From an uncultured Flavobacteriales bacterium (GTDB lineage Bacteria; Bacteroidota; Bacteroidia; Flavobacteriales_D; Crocinitomicaceae): 64,000 nt of DNA. Position numbers and translations under genes: made by a program. Within the stretch, counting starts at the first letter, position 1, and every line of letters begins with the position of its first letter. The stretch covers positions 1 to 64,000 of the forward strand of contig CAJXMN010000005.1 in NCBI GenBank assembly GCA_913056215.1, given 5' to 3'. This document shows positions 1,729 through 10,023 of the stretch, piece after piece. The notes under the pieces are model-generated. The model was not told the DNA's origin. It searched no databases and saw nothing but the letters and a program-made list of their open reading frames with translations.

Positions 1729-2322
1729 TTAATTTCTTCTGTCTTTTAGCACCTCTAGTACATTATTTATACTGAAGCCTTTAGCGCGCAACAATATGAG
1801 GTAGTGGAATAATAAATCCGCACTTTCATTTAAAAACAGCTCCTCATTATCATCTTTTGATTCGATAACAACTTCTACAGCTTCCTCACCAACCTTTTGT
1901 ACGATCTTATTCATACCCTTTTCAAACAAACTAGAAACATAAGAGGCTTCTGAAGGATTGATCTTTCGATCGTTAATGATTCTTTCAAGTTGTTCGATCA
2001 CTCCAAATTGATTAGAAGCAGTATCCCCCCAGCAAGTAGTTGTTCCTGTGTGACAAGTTGGACCATTTGGACGTGCTTTTACTAAAAGTGTATCATTGTC
2101 GCAATCAACCTCAATGCTATGAAAATCAAGTGTATTACCACTCTCTTCTCCTTTTGTCCAGAGTCGTTGCTTAGAACGCGAATAAAATGTCACAAGTTTT
2201 GTTTTAAGCGTTTCTTCGTAGGCCTTTTCATTCATATACCCAAGCATGAGCACATCCATTGTATCCACATCTTGGATAATTGCGGGAACTAATCCATCTC
2301 CTTTTTCGAAATCTATTTCCAT
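1729..2322 (-). CDS. hisIE: Bifunctional phosphoribosyl-AMP cyclohydrolase / phosphoribosyl-ATP pyrophosphatase
   Basis: Carries out steps 2 and 3 of histidine synthesis, turning phosphoribosyl-ATP into ProFAR. Residues 1-105 are the HisI cyclohydrolase, with the metal-binding motif region DCDNDTLLVKARPNG followed by CHTGTTTCW, which supplies the conserved zinc cysteines. Residues about 108-197 are the all-helical HisE pyrophosphatase (KVGEEAVEVVIESK, ESADLLFHYLILL), with the acidic Mg-binding residues. The length of 197 fits the fused HisIE of enterobacteria and Bacteroidota. The ATG is 1 base from the hisF stop, so it is translated as the last gene of the his operon. The E-domain-first step precedes the I-domain step in the pathway although I comes first in the protein. 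Confidence 0.97.
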   Translation of the reverse strand: MEIDFEKGDGLVPAIIQDVDTMDVLMLGYMNEKAYEETLKTKLVTFYSRSKQRLWTKGEESGNTLDFHSIEVDCDNDTLLVKARPNGPTCHTGTTTCWGDTASNQFGVIEQLERIINDRKINPSEASYVSSLFEKGMNKIVQKVGEEAVEVVIESKDDNEELFLNESADLLFHYLILLRAKGFSINNVLEVLKDRRN

Positions 2323-2323
2323 A

Positions 2324-3082
2324 TCAAACGGTTCTTACGGGTATATTTTCTTGTGCTAATTTATGTTTTAATTCTGGAATTTCAATTGTCTGAAAGTGAA
2401 AAACACTGGCAGCCAGTGCCGCTGAAATCTCTGTTTGTTGAAAGAGATCAGAAAAATGCTCTTCTTTTCCCGCTCCTCCAGAGGCAATGACAGGTATAGA
2501 TACTAGTTCATCTACTTTCTGAAGTGCTTCCAGTGCAAATCCACCTTTAGTTCCATCATGATCCATAGAAGTGAAAAGGATTTCCCCTGCTCCGAGTTGT
2601 TCTGCTTTTTTCACCCAATCAAATAAATCAATGTCTGTTCTTTCACGTCCTCCTACTAAATGAACTTTCCAACCATCCTCAGTGTTTTTTGCATCCACAG
2701 AAAGCACTACACATTGATTCCCAAATTTATCTGCTAGTTCAGTGAGCAGTTCGGGTCGCTTTACTGCCGCTGAATTAACAGCAATCTTATCCGCTCCGGC
2801 ATGCAACAGAACATCTGCATCTTCAACACTTCGCACTCCGCCTCCAACCGTGAAGGGAATGCTCACATTTCGCGCAATGCGTTCTACAAGTTTTGCAAGT
2901 GTCTTTCGCTTTTCATGTGTAGCTGTAATATCTAAAAACACCAGTTCATCAGCACCGATATCAGAATATTTTTTAGCTAATTCTATCGGGTCACCAGCAT
3001 CCTGAAGATCAACAAAGTTTACTCCTTTCACAGTTCTTCCATCCTTAATATCTAAACACGGTATAATTCGTTTACGTAACAT
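2324..3082 (-). CDS. hisF: Imidazole glycerol phosphate synthase, cyclase subunit
   Basis: Uses ammonia delivered by HisH to convert PRFAR into imidazole glycerol phosphate and AICAR. The 252-residue protein is a (beta/alpha)8 barrel. The start [20 protein letters not shown] carries the first catalytic Asp (CLDI, D11). [10 protein letters not shown] and VIASGGAGK are the two phosphate-binding loops, and DHDGTKGG contains the second catalytic Asp region. It abuts hisA directly (the hisA stop ends at 3083 and the hisF ATG starts at 3082). HisF and HisA are related half-barrel duplicates and lie side by side here. Confidence 0.98.
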
Positions 3083-3817
3083 CTATTTATAGAAATTTGC
3101 AATATCGATTAAACTGATCTGTCCTTCATAGATTGCTTTGCCTACAATTGCTCCGAATAAGCCTTTACCTTGTAATTCAATCACCTCTTCCATCGAAGAG
3201 ACTCCGCCACTGGCGATAAGTTGAAGATCAGGAAACTCTTCCAAAATAGCTGAGTAAAGTTCGATGGAAGAACCTGACATCATACCATCTTTGGAAATAT
3301 CGGTACAAATGGAAGTAGAAACTCCTCGTTCCGTAAATTTTTCCAAAAACTCAAAAAGCTCCAGACCGCTATCCTCTTTCCAGCCATTGATGGCAATCTT
3401 TCGGTCACGCACGTCAGCTCCAAGGATGATCTTTTCAGGTCCGAAATCCTGTATCCAACGATAGACAGTTTCAGGATTTTTCACCGCAATACTTCCTGCC
3501 GTCACATGATTCGCTCCAGATTCCAATACCTTTTTTATATCCTCATCTGATTTCACCCCGCCTCCAAAGTCAATCTTAAGATTAGTTTGTCCCGCAATCT
3601 TTTCCAAAACTGCATAATTAATCACCTTGGCTGATTTCGCTCCATCAAGATCTACCAAGTGTAAATGCTCTATTCCATGATCTTCAAACGATTTAGCAAC
3701 TTCCAACGGATTTTCGTTGTATACTTTCTTCTGATTATAGTCACCTTGAGATAAGCGTACACATTTTCCTTCAATGATATCAATGGCCGGGATAATTTTA
3801 ATCGTTGAATTGCTCAT
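3083..3817 (-). CDS. hisA: ProFAR isomerase (HisA)
   Basis: Isomerises ProFAR to PRFAR, step 4 of histidine synthesis. The protein has 244 residues and is a (beta/alpha)8 barrel. [20 protein letters not shown] places the catalytic Asp in the first strand (AIDI). [11 protein letters not shown] is a phosphate-binding loop, [12 protein letters not shown] holds the second catalytic Asp, and LIASGGVSS is the second phosphate loop. The ATG lies 1 base from the hisH stop. No TrpF-like dual-function signature was looked for. Confidence 0.98.
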
Positions 3818-3818
3818 T

Positions 3819-4394
3819 TTATTGATTTAAAAAGTTTAAGATGATCTCCTCTCCTACCTTACCACTCTTTTCCGGATGAAATTGACACCCGAAGAAGTTA
3901 TCTTTTGCCAAAGAAGCAGAGAACTTTATTCCATATTCACATGAGGCGATCGTTTCCTGATTAATCGGAACGTAGTAACTGTGCACAAAATAGGTTTGTC
4001 CTGTTACTCCCTTCATAATCGATGAACAATCAAGCACATCATTCCATCCCATATGCGGAACTTTCAACTGATCATCAAATTTCTTTACATCCATATCGAA
4101 AATCCCAAGTCCATTAACGTCTCCCTCTTCTGAAAATCGACACATTAACTGCATCCCTAAGCAAACACCAAGAACAGGTTGTTTAAGATTTCTAATCACC
4201 TCCGAGAGTCCTTTCGCCTCAATGGTTTCCATGGCTGCTTTCGCATGTCCCACTCCTGGGAAAACAACATAATCTGCAGTCTTGATCGTTTTAGGGTCAT
4301 CCGTTAAAACGGGGTTATATCCTAAGCGCTGAAAGGCAAAATTTACCGATTTGACATTCCCTGCACCATAATCAATAATGACAATATTCTTCAT
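3819..4394 (-). CDS. hisH: Imidazole glycerol phosphate synthase, glutaminase subunit
   Basis: Class I glutamine amidotransferase that hydrolyses glutamine and channels ammonia to HisF. The protein has 191 residues. GVCLGMQLM contains the nucleophilic Cys, and CQFHPEKSG supplies the His and Glu of the triad. [12 protein letters not shown] and VFPGVGH are the conserved N-terminal and oxyanion-strand motifs. It sits 11 bases after the hisB stop and directly before hisA, so the HisH-HisF pair is split by hisA, the usual Bacteroidota order. Confidence 0.98.
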
Positions 4395-4405
4395 CTTCAG
4401 CTCTT

Positions 4406-5542
4406 TTATAGCACTCCTTTTGTACTTGGCAAGAACGCTTCGTTGACGTCTCTTTTCTTGGCCATTTTGATCGCTTTTGCAAAGGCTTTAAAAATACTTT
4501 CGATCTTGTGGTGCTCATTCTCTCCCTTCGCTTTGATGTAAAGGTTTGCCAGAGCAGCATCTGAAAAGCTTTTGAAGAAATGCATAAACATTTCTGTTGG
4601 CATATCTCCTACCATCTCACGATTGAACTTTGCTTTCCACACAAGCCAGTTTCTACCTCCAAAATCAAGTCCTACTTTTGCATTACAATCGTCCATCGGT
4701 AAAAAGAATCCATAACGCTCCACACCGATTTTGTTTCCCAATGCGTTTCTAAAGCATTCTCCCAGTACAATCGCCGTATCTTCAATGGTATGATGTTCAT
4801 CTACTTCTAGATCACCTTTCACCTGAATGGAAAGATCTAATGCTCCGTGTCGTGCAATTTGCTCCAACATGTGATCAAAGAACTTCAATCCTGTTGAGAT
4901 TTCAGCTTTACCCGATCCATCTAGATCCAAAGAAATATCAATATCCGTTTCTTTTGTGGTTCGTTTTACTTTCTCTGTTCGCTGTCCCAATCGCAAATAG
5001 GTATAGATTTCCTTCCAGTCACGTGTTTCAAGGACAACAGATTTCAATATCTCTTCTTGATGAGTTGAGACCTCTCCTGTTCCAGGATCATTTGGATTTT
5101 TCATGTAGATCCCTTTCGCCCCTATATTTTTAGCGAGCTCCATATCCGTCAGGCGATCACCTATCACATAAGAGTTTTGTAGATCATAGTCTCCTTCCAT
5201 ATACTTCGTCAACAAACCTGTTCGCGGCTTTCTTGTTGGTGCATTATCCTCCGGAAAGGAACGGTCAATACATTGTTCTGCAAAGACGACACCCTCTTTC
5301 TCTAACGTTTGAATCAATAAGTTATGTGGACCTTCAAAAGTCTTATAAGGATAAGCATCCGTTCCTAAGCCATCTTGATTGGTAACCATGACCAATTCAA
5401 AATCTAACTCATTGGCTATTCTTGCCAAATTGCTGATCATTCCAGGATAAAAAGCGAACTTTTCAAATGAATCCACCTGATAATCTACAGGTGGCTCTTC
5501 CAACAAAACCCCGTCTCTGTCTATGAATAATACTTTCTTCAT
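4406..5542 (-). CDS. hisB: Bifunctional histidinol-phosphatase / imidazoleglycerol-phosphate dehydratase
   Basis: Fused enzyme for two non-adjacent steps of the pathway: dehydration of imidazole glycerol phosphate and dephosphorylation of histidinol phosphate. Residues 1-165 are the HAD-type phosphatase, with [12 protein letters not shown] giving the Asp nucleophile pair and [14 protein letters not shown] the later acidic residues. Residues about 185-378 are the dehydratase, with metal-binding [11 protein letters not shown] and [15 protein letters not shown], and a conserved STKGVL end. The 378 residues match the two-domain E. coli type. The gene is 2 bases after hisC. A 62-residue frame inside it on the same strand is a shadow. 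Confidence 0.98.
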
Positions 5543-5544
5543 TG

Positions 5545-6585
5545 TTAAATATTAATGGTGTCAAACACCTCCATAAATCGATTATTTTCCTCTTTGGTTC
5601 CTACTGATAGTCGCAAGCAGTTCTCACATCCAAAAGCACTTGTTCTATTGCGTACGATCACTCCTTTTTCTACCAAACGATCGTAATATTTGTTTGCATC
5701 ACTCACCTTGAAAAGTACAAAGTTAGCATCTGTGGGGTAAACTCGAATCACAGCGTCTTGATGTTCAAGGAAATTGATGAGTCGCGATCGTTCGAGTTTT
5801 AACTGCGTAATCTCGGATGCGACCTCTTCAATTCTTCCTAAACGATTCAACGCCATTTCCTGAGAAATACCATTGACATTATAAGGCGGTTTGATCCGAT
5901 TGAGAATATTGATGATCTCTTCATGCGCTATCCCAACACCTACTCTAATACCTGCCATTCCAAATGCTTTTGAGAAGGTTTGGCTGACCATCAAGTTTTG
6001 ATAATTCGTTAATTCATCTAACATCGATGCTTTATCTGCAAAATCGATATAGGCTTCATCTACCAATACTAAACCATTGAATTTTTCCAGGATTTCTTTA
6101 ATACTATCCTTGTTTAACAAATTACCTGTTGGATTATTAGGAGAGCAGAGAATAATCATTTTCGCTCCTTCTGACGCAGCAAGGATCGCATCAACGTCAA
6201 GGTCGAAATTGTGATCTAACGCGACCTCAGACAATTTCACATCGTTCATATTCGCAAGAACTTTGTACATGCCATAAGAAGGTTTGATCGTCACAACGAA
6301 ATCCTTTCCAGGCTCACAAAAAGCGCGGAAAACAAGATCTAAGATTTCATCCGATCCATTTCCGATGATCAACTGATCTTTTCGAACCCCTCTAAGGTCA
6401 GCAAACTTACTTTTTAATTCACGTTGCTGCGGATCAGGATAACGATTTACTTTAGAAGGAAAAGGATTCTCATTGGCATCTAAGAATACGCCTTCAGCCC
6501 CGGTAAATTCATCTCTGGCAGAGGAGTAAGGAGTCAGCCTCCTTACATTGTCACGTGTTAAGGCTTCGATATTAATTGCTTTCAT
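5545..6585 (-). CDS. hisC: Histidinol-phosphate aminotransferase
   Basis: PLP-dependent class I/II aminotransferase converting imidazole acetol phosphate and glutamate into histidinol phosphate. The protein has 346 residues. [10 protein letters not shown] is the conserved N-terminal substrate loop. CSPNNPTGN and VDEAYIDFA are the PLP-ring and Asp-Tyr motifs. [16 protein letters not shown] carries the Schiff-base Lys, and the substrate-carboxylate Arg region is NCLRLSVG near the C-terminus. It starts 1 base after the hisD stop. Confidence 0.97.
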
Positions 6586-6586
6586 C

Positions 6587-7864
6587 TTAGATTGCTTTTA
6601 ATCGTAAGGTTACTGCATTCTTGTGCGCTGTCAACTCCTCGGCAGCGGCCATTTCTTCAACAACAGGACCTAACTTTGTCAATCCTTCTTTCGTCGCTTT
6701 CTGGAAGGTGATCTTTTTCACAAAACTATCCAGCGATACACCGCTGTGCATTTTGGCAAATCCGTTCGTCGGTAACGTATGATTGGTACCACTGGCATAA
6801 TCACCTAAACTTTCAGGGGTATAATCGCCAATAAAAACAGATCCAGCATTCCGAATTCCATTGATCAATTTTTGATTTTCACGGGTACTTAGAATTAAAT
6901 GCTCCGGTGCATATTCATTGATCACGTCTATAAATTGATCACTTTCGACACGAATGAGTTTAGCATATTTAAGAGACGCTGCCGCTAGATCCGCTCGAGA
7001 AAGCTCTTTTAACTGAGCGTTGATCTCTGTTTCCACACCGTCGATTAATTCTTCACTATCAGAAAGCAACACTACCTGACTATCGGCACCATGTTCCGCT
7101 TGAGATAAAAGATCTGCAGCTATAAATGCGGGATTTGCCGCATCATCTGCAACGACCATTACTTCTGATGGACCAGCAGGCATATCTATTGCAACTCCGT
7201 TCTGCTGAGCGAATTGTTTAGCCGCTGTTACAAATTGATTCCCTGGACCAAATATCTTATAGACGCTTGGAATTGATTCAGTACCATAAGTCAAACCTGC
7301 GATCGCTTGAATTCCACCAACTTTAAATATCTTATCAATTCCGATCAAATCGGCAGCGTATAGAATTGCCGGGTATATTTCTCCTTCACTGTTTGAAGGC
7401 GTACAAAGCACAACCTCTTTGCATTCAGCAATTTTTGCAGGAACACCTAACATCAATACGGTAGAAAATAAAGGAGCTGTTCCTCCTGGAATATAGAGTC
7501 CAACTTTATCTATCCCAATTGACTTCCTCCAACATGTGATTCCTGGAAAGGTCTCTACTTCTTTTACAGGTTCTTGTTGCGATTCGTGAAAAGCTCTAAT
7601 GTTTTCTGCAGCGCGCATGATAGCACTTTTTAACTTATGTGACACCTGTCTTTTGGCCTCGTCAATTTCTTTCTTTGTTACACGCAGTTCAATCAGCTCA
7701 ACCTGATCGAACTGCCTGGCATATTTCATAATTGCTGCGTCACCATTCAACTTGACATCGGCGAATAGATCAGAAACTGTTTTTGTCAAATCTCTTTGAT
7801 CGAGCGCAGGACGTTGCAGTGCTTTATTTAGCTCCTCTATGTTCGGATCAATAATTTTATTCAT
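6587..7864 (-). CDS. hisD: Histidinol dehydrogenase
   Basis: Zinc enzyme that oxidises histidinol to histidine with two NAD+, the last step of the pathway. The protein has 425 residues, the usual length. Visible motifs are IGLYIPGG-type dinucleotide-loop sequence (VGLYIPGGTAPLFSTVLMLG), IFGPGNQFVTAAKQ, DMPAGPSEVMVVAD, LLSQAEHGADSQV with zinc-binding Gln/His, and EYAPEHLIL and GTNHTLPT towards the C-terminus. There is a 56-base gap to hisG upstream without clear structure. Its downstream neighbour hisC follows after 1 base. Confidence 0.98.
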   Translation of the reverse strand: MNKIIDPNIEELNKALQRPALDQRDLTKTVSDLFADVKLNGDAAIMKYARQFDQVELIELRVTKKEIDEAKRQVSHKLKSAIMRAAENIRAFHESQQEPVKEVETFPGITCWRKSIGIDKVGLYIPGGTAPLFSTVLMLGVPAKIAECKEVVLCTPSNSEGEIYPAILYAADLIGIDKIFKVGGIQAIAGLTYGTESIPSVYKIFGPGNQFVTAAKQFAQQNGVAIDMPAGPSEVMVVADDAANPAFIAADLLSQAEHGADSQVVLLSDSEELIDGVETEINAQLKELSRADLAAASLKYAKLIRVESDQFIDVINEYAPEHLILSTRENQKLINGIRNAGSVFIGDYTPESLGDYASGTNHTLPTNGFAKMHSGVSLDSFVKKITFQKATKEGLTKLGPVVEEMAAAEELTAHKNAVTLRLKAI

Positions 7865-7920: not shown

Positions 7921-8781
7921 TTATTTAACCATCTTTTCAATCGGCACGATCAAGATCCCTTCTGCACCAGCATCTTTGAGCGCATCAATATTCTCCCAAA
8001 ACTTATCTTCGTTGATCACTGAATGAATAGAGATCCAGCCTTTTTGAGCCAGAGGGATCACCGTAGGACTCTTAATCCCGGGTAAGATATCTGTAATTTC
8101 ATCCAGTTGAGATTCTGGAGCGTTCAGTAGCACATATTTACTGTTCTTTGCAGAAAGTACACTTTGAATGCGGAAGATCAACTTGTCCAGCACTGCTCTT
8201 TTGTCATCAGAAAGATTTGAATTGCTGATCAAGACCGCCTGTGACCTCAACATCACTTCCACCTCTCGAAGTCCATTCATGAAAAGGGTATTTCCGGTAC
8301 TCACAATATCACAAATACCGTCTGCCAGACCAATTGTTGGAGCGATCTCAACAGAACCCGAAATGGTGTGAATCTCTGCATCAATATTTTGTTCCACCAA
8401 ATACTTTTTCAATGTCACTGGATAAGAAGTGGCAATCTTTTTCCCCTCAAAATCCATGACCGACTGTATATCTGAATTCTTAGGAGCTGCCAAAGAGACC
8501 TTGCACTTAGAGAACCCAAGTTCCATTTCCGTTCTTACTTTCGGTTCTTGCTCAATCAATATATTTTCTCCGATAATGGCAATATCTGCCACCCCATCTT
8601 CAACGTATTGGGGAATATCGCTATTTCTAAGGAACAGCAGATCGAGCGGAAAATTATCCACAGAAGCTTTCAATTGGCCTTGAGCTTTGGGAACTTTTAT
8701 TCCACATTCTTTCAAGATCTCCAGCGAACCATCAAGTAATCTTCCAGATTTTTGTACGGCAATTTTAATTCTTTCCATCAT
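7921..8781 (-). CDS. hisG: ATP phosphoribosyltransferase, long form
   Basis: Commits ATP and PRPP to histidine synthesis and is normally feedback-inhibited by histidine. The chosen start is the first ATG at 8781 (tandem ATG ATG, giving MMERIKIAVQKSGRL); a TTG three codons earlier is less likely. At 286 residues this is the long form. The catalytic part ends near residue 210 and includes DGICDIVSTGNTLFMNG, the PRPP-binding loop. The last 75 residues (LPGIKSPTVIPL, WISIHSVINEDKFW, GAEGILIVPIEKM) are the regulatory ACT-like domain, so no HisZ subunit is needed. It is the first structural gene of the operon, 35 bases past the attenuator terminator, so it is subject to the leader control. Confidence 0.97.
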   Translation of the reverse strand: MMERIKIAVQKSGRLLDGSLEILKECGIKVPKAQGQLKASVDNFPLDLLFLRNSDIPQYVEDGVADIAIIGENILIEQEPKVRTEMELGFSKCKVSLAAPKNSDIQSVMDFEGKKIATSYPVTLKKYLVEQNIDAEIHTISGSVEIAPTIGLADGICDIVSTGNTLFMNGLREVEVMLRSQAVLISNSNLSDDKRAVLDKLIFRIQSVLSAKNSKYVLLNAPESQLDEITDILPGIKSPTVIPLAQKGWISIHSVINEDKFWENIDALKDAGAEGILIVPIEKMVK

Positions 8782-8815
8782 AGTTATCAATTAGTGCCTG
8801 CATTCGAACGAAAAC

Positions 8816-8847
8816 AAAAAACCCGCTCGAATCAACAAGCGGGTTTT
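8816..8847 (-). terminator. his attenuator: intrinsic terminator
   Basis: Read on the minus strand, AAAACCCGCT (8847-8838) and AGCGGGTTTT (8827-8818) form a perfect 10-bp stem with a 10-base loop, running into TTTTTTG. This is a classic intrinsic terminator placed between the leader peptide and hisG. Its 5' arm overlaps the segment used by the alternative antiterminator, which makes it conditional. Confidence 0.9.
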
Positions 8848-8888
8848 AAAATATGTTTTATTATTCACATACAAAATCACCTCGCCTG
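8836..8888 (-). promoter_or_regulatory. his attenuator: alternative antiterminator pairing
   Basis: On the minus strand CAGGCGAGGT (8888-8879) can pair with ACCCGCTTG (8844-8836): nine pairs including one G-U, with one bulged A. This uses the terminator's 5' arm, so the two structures exclude each other. The antiterminator arm lies over the end of the leader peptide and its stop codon. A ribosome stalled at the His codons would leave it free (read-through), while a ribosome reaching the stop would cover it (termination). A further ATCAC/GTGAT pairing of the His-codon segment could act as the protector stem. Pairing was found by hand, without energy calculation. Confidence 0.75.
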
Positions 8889-8930
8889 ACGCGATGAAAT
8901 GTGATGATGATGTGTTTTGTTCAAATTCAT
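8877..8930 (-). CDS. hisL: Histidine operon leader peptide (17 residues, four consecutive His)
   Basis: Encodes MNLNKTHHHHISSRQAR, then TGA. The codons CAT CAT CAT CAC are consecutive, seven codons after the ATG. The peptide lies 96 bases upstream of hisG, between a promoter box and a terminator hairpin. Four consecutive His codons in 17 are not expected by chance, and they are placed where a sensor of charged tRNA-His must be. The role is translation-coupled attenuation, as in the enterobacterial his leader (which has seven His), not a working protein. A longer frame overlapping this place in another reading frame (8791-8988) is a shadow. Confidence 0.85.
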   Translation of the reverse strand: MNLNKTHHHHISSRQAR

Positions 8931-8935
8931 GGTGA

Positions 8936-8966
8936 CAAATATAATCAAAGAATATAAACAAAAATA
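8936..8966 (-). promoter_or_regulatory. Predicted his operon promoter (two candidate -7 boxes)
   Basis: On the minus strand TATTTTTG (8966-8959) and TATATTTG (8943-8936) both match TAnnTTTG. Use of the first gives a 5' leader of about 20 bases before the leader-peptide ATG at 8930. The second lies only 5 bases before that ATG and would give a nearly leaderless transcript. A TTTG lies 15 bases upstream of the second box. Which is used cannot be decided by reading. Confidence 0.55.
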
Positions 8967-9019
8967 GTCGGTTGACGTGAAAATACATTTTAGCTTTTTA
9001 TTGTCGTATAATAAACAAC

Positions 9020-9991
9020 TTAAGACTGATTGAATTGCGCAAAATCTTTAGCAAAATAGGTAAGAATTCCTTTAGCACCAGCTCTACGAATGCTTAACAG
9101 CATCTCTGTCATTGTTGCTTCATAATCCAACCAACCTTTCTCCACAGCTGCATGAAGCATCGCGTATTCACCAGAAACATTATAGGCTGTAACAGGAAGT
9201 GTTACATTTTCATCGATTGTTTGGATCACGTCCAAATAGGAAAGTGCAGGTTTTACCATCAACATATCCGCGCCTTCCTCTATATCTAAAAATGCTTCTC
9301 TCAACGCCTCCTTCTTATTCGCTGGATCCATCTGATAGGTCTTTTTATCTCCACTTTTCGGTGCAGAATCAAGTGCTTCTCTGAATGGACCATAAAATGC
9401 ACTCGCATATTTAGCACAATAAGACATAATACTGGTGTTTGAGTATCCATTTTCATCCAACACCTCACGAATATATCCCACACGACCATCCATCATATCA
9501 GAAGGTCCGATAATATCAATTCCTGCTTGTGCCTGAGCGAGGCTCATATCCGCGAGAATTGGAAGGGAAGGATCATTGAGGATTTCTCCATTTTCAACAA
9601 CTCCATCATGACCGTCCGTACTGTATGGATCCAGTGCAACATCACTCATGAGACTTATATCCGGAAACTCACTTTTGAGCGTTGCGATCACTTCGAGATA
9701 AAAATTATCACTCTGAAAACTATATGATGCTTTGCCATCCTTGAAAGCTTCGGGCACAACAGGAAAAAGAACAAAACTTTTAATCCCAAGAGCAATACAG
9801 CGTTCCACCTCTTTTATAACAACATCTTTACCCCAACGATAGATGCCAGGTAAAGCGTCAATTCGCGATTCTTCACCCAAATTATTGGTTACAAATAATG
9901 GGTAAATTAGATGGTCGACGTGTAAGTGCGTCTCCTGAACCATTTTCCGAATGGCATCATACTTCCGATTTCTTCGAGGTCTTGCGTACAT
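9020..9991 (-). CDS. hemB: Delta-aminolevulinic acid dehydratase (porphobilinogen synthase)
   Basis: Condenses two 5-aminolevulinate molecules to porphobilinogen in haem synthesis, in the cytoplasm. The start is the ATG at 9991 (MYARPRRNRKYDAIRKMV). The frame extends to a TTG at 10018, but a promoter box overlaps that codon, so the extension is rejected. The protein has 323 residues, the usual length. Motifs: LFPVVPEAFKDG, LMSDVALDPYSTDGHDG (metal or allosteric region; the Cys cluster of zinc-type enzymes is replaced by the Asp/Ala-type DVALDPY), SYCAKYASAFYGPFR with the first active Lys, and LMVKPALSYLDVI with the Schiff-base Lys. The absence of the zinc cysteines suggests a Mg-type enzyme. 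It lies upstream of the his leader but has its own promoter. Confidence 0.97.
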   Translation of the reverse strand: MYARPRRNRKYDAIRKMVQETHLHVDHLIYPLFVTNNLGEESRIDALPGIYRWGKDVVIKEVERCIALGIKSFVLFPVVPEAFKDGKASYSFQSDNFYLEVIATLKSEFPDISLMSDVALDPYSTDGHDGVVENGEILNDPSLPILADMSLAQAQAGIDIIGPSDMMDGRVGYIREVLDENGYSNTSIMSYCAKYASAFYGPFREALDSAPKSGDKKTYQMDPANKKEALREAFLDIEEGADMLMVKPALSYLDVIQTIDENVTLPVTAYNVSGEYAMLHAAVEKGWLDYEATMTEMLLSIRRAGAKGILTYFAKDFAQFNQS

Positions 9992-10015
9992 AATCACTCT
10001 ATTGGTATTAACAAA

Positions 10016-10023
10016 CAAAAATA
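10016..10023 (-). promoter_or_regulatory. Predicted -7 box of hemB
   Basis: TATTTTTG on the minus strand, 24 bases upstream of the ATG at 9991. It overlaps the alternative TTG start at 10018 and so supports the shorter hemB. The gap to the divergent lipoprotein gene (10140) is about 115 bases. Confidence 0.5.

Follow-up and report, generated by a model that had tools for sequence, protein, structure and literature searches.

The window, i.e., the whole 64,000-nucleotide stretch of DNA that was analysed here, from contig CAJXMN010000005.1 of an uncultured Flavobacteriales bacterium, carries on its minus strand a complete his operon in the order hisG-hisD-hisC-hisB-hisH-hisA-hisF-hisIE. The first gene, hisG (7921–8778; a further in-frame ATG lies at 8781), matched TIGR00070 with 190.3 bits against a cut-off of 75.75; hisD, hisC, a bifunctional hisB, hisH, hisA, hisF and hisIE occupy 1729–7864, and each scored above its NCBIfam equivalog cut-off. 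A short leader frame precedes hisG, and the gene called upstream of the leader, on the same strand, is hemB (9020–10018), whose end is 89 nt (8931–9019) from it. No terminator was found within this gap in a search of positions 8700–9100, so that the his attenuator described below may also end hemB transcripts, as a side effect.

The leader frame (8930–8877, minus strand) has 17 codons between the ATG at 8930 and the TGA at 8879–8877, and encodes the peptide MNLNKTHHHHISSRQAR; its codons 7–10 (CAT CAT CAT CAC, 8912–8901) are four consecutive His codons. The 98 nt between the leader stop codon and hisG contain an intrinsic terminator of 12 pairs with a 6 nt loop, formed by arm 3 (8847–8836) and arm 4 (8829–8818), both placed by terminator search and alignment, and a T-tract at 8821–8811 with one G within it. 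The terminator search over 8700–9100 returned this one site, compared with 0.2 sites of such kind expected. Part of arm 3 (8844–8836, ACCCGCTTG) doubles as the antiterminator partner of arm 2 (8888–8879, CAGGCG-A-GGT), which covers the codons for Q-A-R plus the first base of the stop codon; the antiterminator has 9 pairs with one bulged A. Folding of the leader gave –35 kcal/mol (z = –4.0), and none of 200 shuffled sequences equalled this value.

The fold also disclosed a third helix between arm 1 (8914–8901), which covers the His codons, and 8880–8866, a partner overlapping the end of arm 2. In the E. coli his leader the hairpins follow the scheme 1:2, 2:3 and 3:4, and the helix 8914–8901 x 8880–8866 is the 1:2 hairpin of classical attenuators; it hides arm 2 in the ribosome-free RNA.

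A preliminary description of this region had reported the 17-codon frame with its four His codons and an antiterminator arm over the end of the frame and its stop codon, both of which are present, and its arm coordinates were correct to within a few bases. The terminator and T-run that it listed are there as well, with the arm shared with the antiterminator, although the stem has 12 pairs and not 10; the operon that it placed downstream is complete with all genes above their NCBIfam cut-offs; and the energy calculation that it proposed for the leader gave the stable fold above, including the third helix, which it had not mentioned.

Recurrence of the leader upstream of hisG

We collected 223 Bacteroidota loci, of which five with less than 200 nt upstream were removed before counting. 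The sample is biased to genomes with a HisG resembling that of the window (of the named relatives, Flavobacteriales bacterium UBA2104 has the most similar HisG at 92%, followed by Fluviicola sp. NORP2 at 85%), and retrieval was mostly one per genus among the matches listed, with weaker matches left out; from 252 genomes of the phylum with HisG, 29 were added as new loci and 59 more came in a further retrieval. A leader was scored as a frame of 8–40 codons that opens with ATG or GTG, contains three His separated by no more than one residue and stops well short of hisG, and a terminator as a hairpin plus T-tract after the leader. By this rule a His-rich leader stands upstream of hisG in 202 of the 218 loci; these are 191 distinct leaders because some loci overlap and one genome may be retrieved in two ways (e.g., L002 and L033). 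Loci with a leader include those of Chitinophaga, Marinifilum, Crocinitomix, Reichenbachiella and Saprospiraceae. The leader was followed by any terminator in 183 of the 218 loci and by a strong one in 175. Shuffled sequences (n = 4360) gave 24 leaders, four with any terminator and none with a strong one; reverse strands (n = 218) gave two leaders and other segments of the window (n = 548) gave seven, again none with a strong terminator.

The 16 loci without a leader by the rule are of several kinds. Four (L018, L058, L118 and L144, the last with an N gap) have, on visual inspection, a terminator and a His run that is shortened or interrupted, L043 has a terminator without a leader, and in several G+C-rich stretches nothing was recognised. 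Nineteen leaders lack a detected terminator (L105, L123, L126, L132, L182–L184, L204, L205, L214–L223); in L105 an imperfect hairpin is visible by eye. In two Phaeodactylibacter MAGs the his leader is immediately preceded by a tRNA-Phe gene called by ARAGORN (L055:1732–1807 and L056:1647–1722), and in a third (L043:1762–1835) there is a tRNA-Phe gene and a terminator, the leader being undetected.

That the terminator merely ends hemB transcription, with the His run a chance ORF, is hardly credible: hemB does run in the same direction and ends upstream, at 9020, and 8700–9100 yielded a single terminator, but the pair of leader and terminator is found ahead of hisG in the 183 loci above, a hemB end was recognised by a strict pattern in just six of the 223 upstream stretches (two being one genome), and a chance ORF is rejected by the shuffle, reverse-strand and window-segment controls.

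Comparison with Rfam families

The window was scanned with Rfam models. The enterobacterial His_leader, RF00514, gave 25.6 bits (E 0.02, full model), the top bit score in a permissive scan in which an unrelated family on the other strand reached E 0.016; the curated cut-off of 49 bits was missed. None of 20 relatives, at least nine of which carry hisG, exceeded the cut-off; weaker matches occurred in four of the 20, up to 39.8 bits, and none was listed for the window's genome. A control search with the same model found matches in E. coli and C. glutamicum, over the cut-off in one of them. Membership of the window element in the enterobacterial family is rejected on these scores. No T-box match exceeded the Rfam cut-off in the window and none was listed to E 10, and RF01692 (Bacteroid-trp) gave no match there at its cut-off.

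These scans bear on the idea of direct sensing of histidine or tRNA-His, whether by a T-box, by some other ligand-binding riboswitch or by a protein. In other phyla his genes are indeed under the control of T-boxes and of the repressor HisR (PMC9413887), but neither the window nor any of 20 related loci had a match above cut-off to any Rfam family, T-box included, and what relatives conserve is an open frame of His codons, its flanks being variable; direct sensing is thus highly improbable.

Pairing and covariation of the arms

For covariation, loci were filtered by arm type, length and likeness from 168 to 78 candidates, and 59 leaders of one arm type were hand-picked from these to give alignment A1. 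On A1 the terminator is paired in 94.4% of cells with 57 double-change cells, and its covariation was 0.313 against 0.171 for shuffles (0/500 equal), with a maximum of 0.098 when slid. The antiterminator core of six pairs (columns 58–63/122–127) is kept in 57–59 of the 59 leaders, and the three outer pairs in 39, 27 and 28; the whole helix has 25 double-change cells. Covariation of the antiterminator was 0.197 against 0.148 shuffled (0/500; slid maximum 0.124), and 83.1% of its cells were paired compared with 81.6% in shuffles (5/500). Four of its pairs have a double change against 2.1 in shuffles (32/500), a count also reached when the helix was slid by –3, and the number of pair types was not above that of shuffles (344/500).

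Pairing energies were compared with those of shuffled partners. The 1:2 pairing averaged –13.2 kcal/mol over the 59 leaders, against –6.6 kcal/mol for shuffled partners, and at most five of 100 shuffles equalled it in 49 of the 59. In the 168 unique loci with a strong terminator, the antiterminator averaged –10.4 kcal/mol against –6.1 kcal/mol for a shuffled post-His segment, and in 115 of them at most three of 60 shuffles equalled it. Two arm types are common in this wider set, CAGGCG with CGYYTG, and GGTAAGC with GCTTACC. A duplex with a strength of at least –7.5 kcal/mol was found in 91 of 97 loci, with arm 2 at a median of 12 nt past the last His codon; over these loci, the distance of arm 2 had a standard deviation of 3.5 nt when measured from the last His codon and of 7.9 nt when measured from the stop codon. 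The spacing to the His codons is thus the steadier one, as expected if the edge of a stalled ribosome sets it. The contrast is weaker in the wider set (157 of 168 loci; sd 5.2 from His against 7.7 from the stop). When arms were swapped between loci they paired at –8.57 kcal/mol compared with –10.85 kcal/mol for each locus's own arms, and in just 29 of the 97 loci did fewer than 10% of foreign arms pair better; since swapped arms still pair fairly well, much of the arm conservation is lineage-wide identity.

The preliminary description had likened the region to the logic of the enterobacterial his leader, and had made its reading depend on conservation of the His run and the paired arms in relatives and on a response of read-through to histidine. 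The likeness gains backing from the His run, antiterminator and terminator that recur in relatives, and with the recurrence of the run and arms the sequence half of that test came out in its favour.

A search of the window's genome with the covariance model R1 found one site at E 0.001, the window attenuator itself, and listed no further copies. Ten regions of relatives with weaker R1 matches were inspected by eye, of which eight had no amino-acid leader and two had Ile-rich ones. One of the two (L244; G109:C8:115000–116500, minus strand) has two tandem Ile/Val-rich leaders before ilvE, MNVGLNIIIISIIVIIPDEQQ and, upstream of it, ...ITISISVIIIMM, followed by terminators; the other (L250; G541:C4:160900–162200, minus strand) has a single Ile/Val-rich leader before ilvE, MKNANIISIINHRQ, and then a terminator. 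Both ilvE genes score over the TIGR01122 cut-off. The leaders with their terminators suggest branched-chain attenuators within the same taxonomic order.

Computed states of the leader RNA

The leader was folded with the ribosome modelled as a 28-nt block, its size and place being assumed. With the block at each of codons 7–10 and polymerase near nt 98, the antiterminator formed at –16.9 kcal/mol; moving the block to the stop codon left no competing antiterminator (–0.1), and the terminator formed once it was complete. The ribosome-free fold held the 1:2 hairpin plus the terminator. In the complete leader RNA the terminator was the more stable in every case, that of the stalled ribosome included; the switch must therefore be kinetic and be decided during transcription.

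From these states the following course may be proposed. RNA polymerase would start on the leader ATG or one base upstream, and a ribosome would initiate on this (nearly) leaderless RNA and translate the peptide. Should charged tRNA-His be scarce, the ribosome would stall on codons 7–10 and leave arm 2 (8888–8879) free to capture arm 3 (8844–8836) ahead of the synthesis of arm 4, so that no terminator would form and hisG would be transcribed. With plentiful His-tRNA, the ribosome would reach the stop codon and cover arm 2, and arm 3 would pair with arm 4 and terminate transcription. Were no ribosome present, the His codons would pair with the arm 2 region, and termination would follow too. In this model the start site, the stalling and the response to histidine are the parts that we infer.

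Another reading has translation of the leader controlling translation of hisG, by masking of its start site or by reinitiation, rather than its transcription. Reinitiation has been proposed for leader genes near structural genes (PMC4833913), and the 19 His-rich leaders elsewhere in the phylum without a detected terminator would suit such a control; at this locus, the 98 nt that separate the leader stop codon from hisG hold a covarying 12-bp terminator and T-tract, which makes translational control very unlikely. The sequence and the computed folds together show a short ORF in the leader that carries consecutive codons for the amino acid made by the operon, exclusive antiterminator and terminator structures sharing one arm, and an operon for making His (hisG, D, C, B, H, A, F and IE); they argue strongly that the his operon is controlled in cis by a ribosome-mediated transcription attenuator, a reading we hold with high confidence.

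Promoter box and start of the leader RNA

A sigma-A type –7 box (TAnnTTTG), TATATTTG, lies at 8943–8936 on the minus strand, and a box is found at the same place in near relatives: 9 of 12 near loci besides the window (L002, L003, L006, L008, L011, L012, L013, L016 and L017) have it 4–5 nt before the leader start, as does the window; in L007, L010 and L014 the box is 8, 16 and 8 nt from the start, respectively. The promoter box of the preliminary description, for which it gave no coordinates, is probably, to judge by the span described, TATTTTTG at 8966–8959; that box does exist in the window sequence, but only the window has one there (0/12 near loci), and it is rejected in favour of the box common to relatives at 8943–8936. 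Neither box of the window has a –33 TTG at the usual spacing. A TTG at 8961–8959 is a weak candidate, and its 15-nt spacer to the box at 8943, compared with 17–22 nt in relatives, makes it doubtful as a –33 element.

Over the wider sample, the 40 nt preceding the leader contain TAnnTT[TC]G in 78 of 97 cases, compared with 3.5% for shuffles, and a TTG stands 17–22 nt upstream of 85 of 120 of the relatives' boxes, against 10.2% of shuffles; because of this enrichment the relatives' boxes look, as a set, like real promoters. With the sigma-A box at –12 to –5 (PMC9723704), a gap of 4 nt between box and leader puts +1 on the start codon. A box was found within 30 nt upstream of 131 of the 191 distinct leaders, and the gap from box to start has a spike at 4 nt (25/131; one leader at 3, four at 5 and one at 6 nt). 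The 31 of the 131 leaders with a gap of at most 6 nt are mutually non-independent, seven of them coming from one genus (g7). A makes up 23% of positions –4 to –1 in these 31 leaders and 60% in the remaining 100; the 31 also include every one of the five GTG starts found in the 131 leaders (12/191 overall). The gap in the window is 5 nt, and 4 nt in its two closest relatives.

Given the shared box 5 nt before the ATG (box end 8936), the transcription start is predicted at 8931–8930 and the 5' UTR at 0–1 nt, a prediction from sequence by which the leader RNA of the window probably starts at the first codon of the leader. For comparison, leaderless transcripts make up 5.5% of mapped F. psychrophilum mRNAs (PMC9723704), and in B. 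thetaiotaomicron 5' UTRs of less than 10 nt account for about 3.7% of the total (PMC7366714).

The same attenuator might instead have an ordinary 5' UTR, its RNA starting upstream, either from the box at 8966–8959 or by read-through from hemB. This would fit with the lack of a –33 TTG at 17–22 nt from the box at 8943–8936, and with the absence of a detected terminator between hemB and the leader, which would permit read-through. Against it are the position of the box in near loci (9/12 at the place of 8943–8936, 0/12 at that of 8966–8959), the spike at 4 nt, and the low A content before the start of short-gap leaders. We regard an upstream start as a possible but rather unlikely variant, nested within the attenuator reading and not exclusive of it, and retain the leaderless start as the probable one.

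Discussion

Attenuators of this kind are already known; the parts that deserve attention are the probable leaderless design and the spread through the phylum. Vitreschak et al. are said to have counted Bacteroidetes/Chlorobi, in 2004, among the groups with candidate attenuators. According to PMC2965389, the only groups with demonstrated leader-peptide systems in 2010 were Proteobacteria and Actinobacteria, and PMC9413887 in 2022 gives his RNA attenuation as proteobacterial plus three Firmicutes lineages. PMC8305728, which deals with his genes of the superphylum, mentions attenuation once, in general terms, and PMC7366714 describes short ORFs in the 5' UTRs of Bacteroides that resemble leader peptides.

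Nearest to the present case, PMC9723704 (2021) reports clues for leader-peptide attenuation before amino-acid operons in Flavobacterium, and a structured 5' element upstream of hisG that is conserved in Flavobacteriaceae. That element agrees with ours in gene, in taxonomic order (by the names of relatives) and in having no Rfam match; the lines of that paper that concern hisG name no leader peptide, describe neither arms nor covariation and report no occurrence outside the family. The preliminary description had called the enterobacterial leader family unexpected in this phylum; the window element does fall outside RF00514 by its Rfam scores, but the statement was too strong, since those clues and the hisG element had been reported (PMC9723704).

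The enterobacterial his leader (RF00514) and the window element are alike in placing a His-codon leader peptide, a set of alternative hairpins and a terminator ahead of the his genes. They differ in that the E. coli leader encodes an 18-residue peptide with seven His (PMC3896937), whereas the window has four His, other arms and a Bacteroidota-type promoter and is probably leaderless. The His attenuators of Firmicutes likewise lie outside Proteobacteria and have 3–5 consecutive His codons (PMC9413887), but belong to another phylum and to small species groups, with hisS/hisZ genes in those treated in PMC2965389. Sinorhizobium meliloti trpL is also a leaderless attenuator, with a transcript beginning at the leader ATG, but of a Trp operon in Alphaproteobacteria, its 5' end being taken from earlier work (PMC7298713). 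The Bacteroid-trp motif RF01692 is a candidate cis-regulatory RNA of Bacteroidetes, of trp genes by its name (PMC2864571), and differs in leaving the window unmatched at the Rfam cut-off.

Two families of His-rich leaders before hisG depart from this pattern. Family f23 (L205, L212, L215–L218 and L220–L223), outside the class of the window, has longer leaders, some with GTG starts 3–4 nt after the –7 box; nine of its ten members are without a detected intrinsic terminator and L212 has a weak one. In f23 the spacer between leader and hisG has a C/G ratio of 2.99, and in the terminator class one of 0.98; the high ratio of f23 would be in keeping with Rho-dependent termination. No terminator was detected in family f3 (L182, L183, L184 and L204), and the predicted fold of L182 and L204 puts most of the leader within one long hairpin; perhaps the ribosome in f3 sits inside the terminating stem.

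An evenly balanced proposal, for which we see equal chances of being right or wrong, is that the his attenuator of Bacteroidota is old and phylum-wide and falls into two separate designs, the first having an A-rich 5' UTR that is short (3–8 or 11–17 nt by prediction) and the second being leaderless, with the box locked 4 nt before the start, and that the window is of the leaderless design; at least one lineage (f23) would have swapped the intrinsic terminator for a C-rich, G-poor and possibly Rho-dependent output.

In the whole genome of the window, searches with Homoserine_dh and ILVD_EDD_N found nothing and Anth_synt_I_N had no hit above the cut-off, compared with 14 of 14 control genomes that have each of the three, and an ilvE query met only proteins of 27–29% identity in it. 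By its gene content the organism probably cannot make Thr, Ile/Val and Trp, yet keeps a regulated his operon.

A His leader before 202 of the 218 sampled Bacteroidota hisG loci fills a gap in RNA annotation, and alignment A1 together with model R1 could seed an Rfam family. The leaderless design poses the question of how ribosomes would load in time, in a phylum without Shine-Dalgarno, on an RNA whose terminator is complete after about 113 nt.
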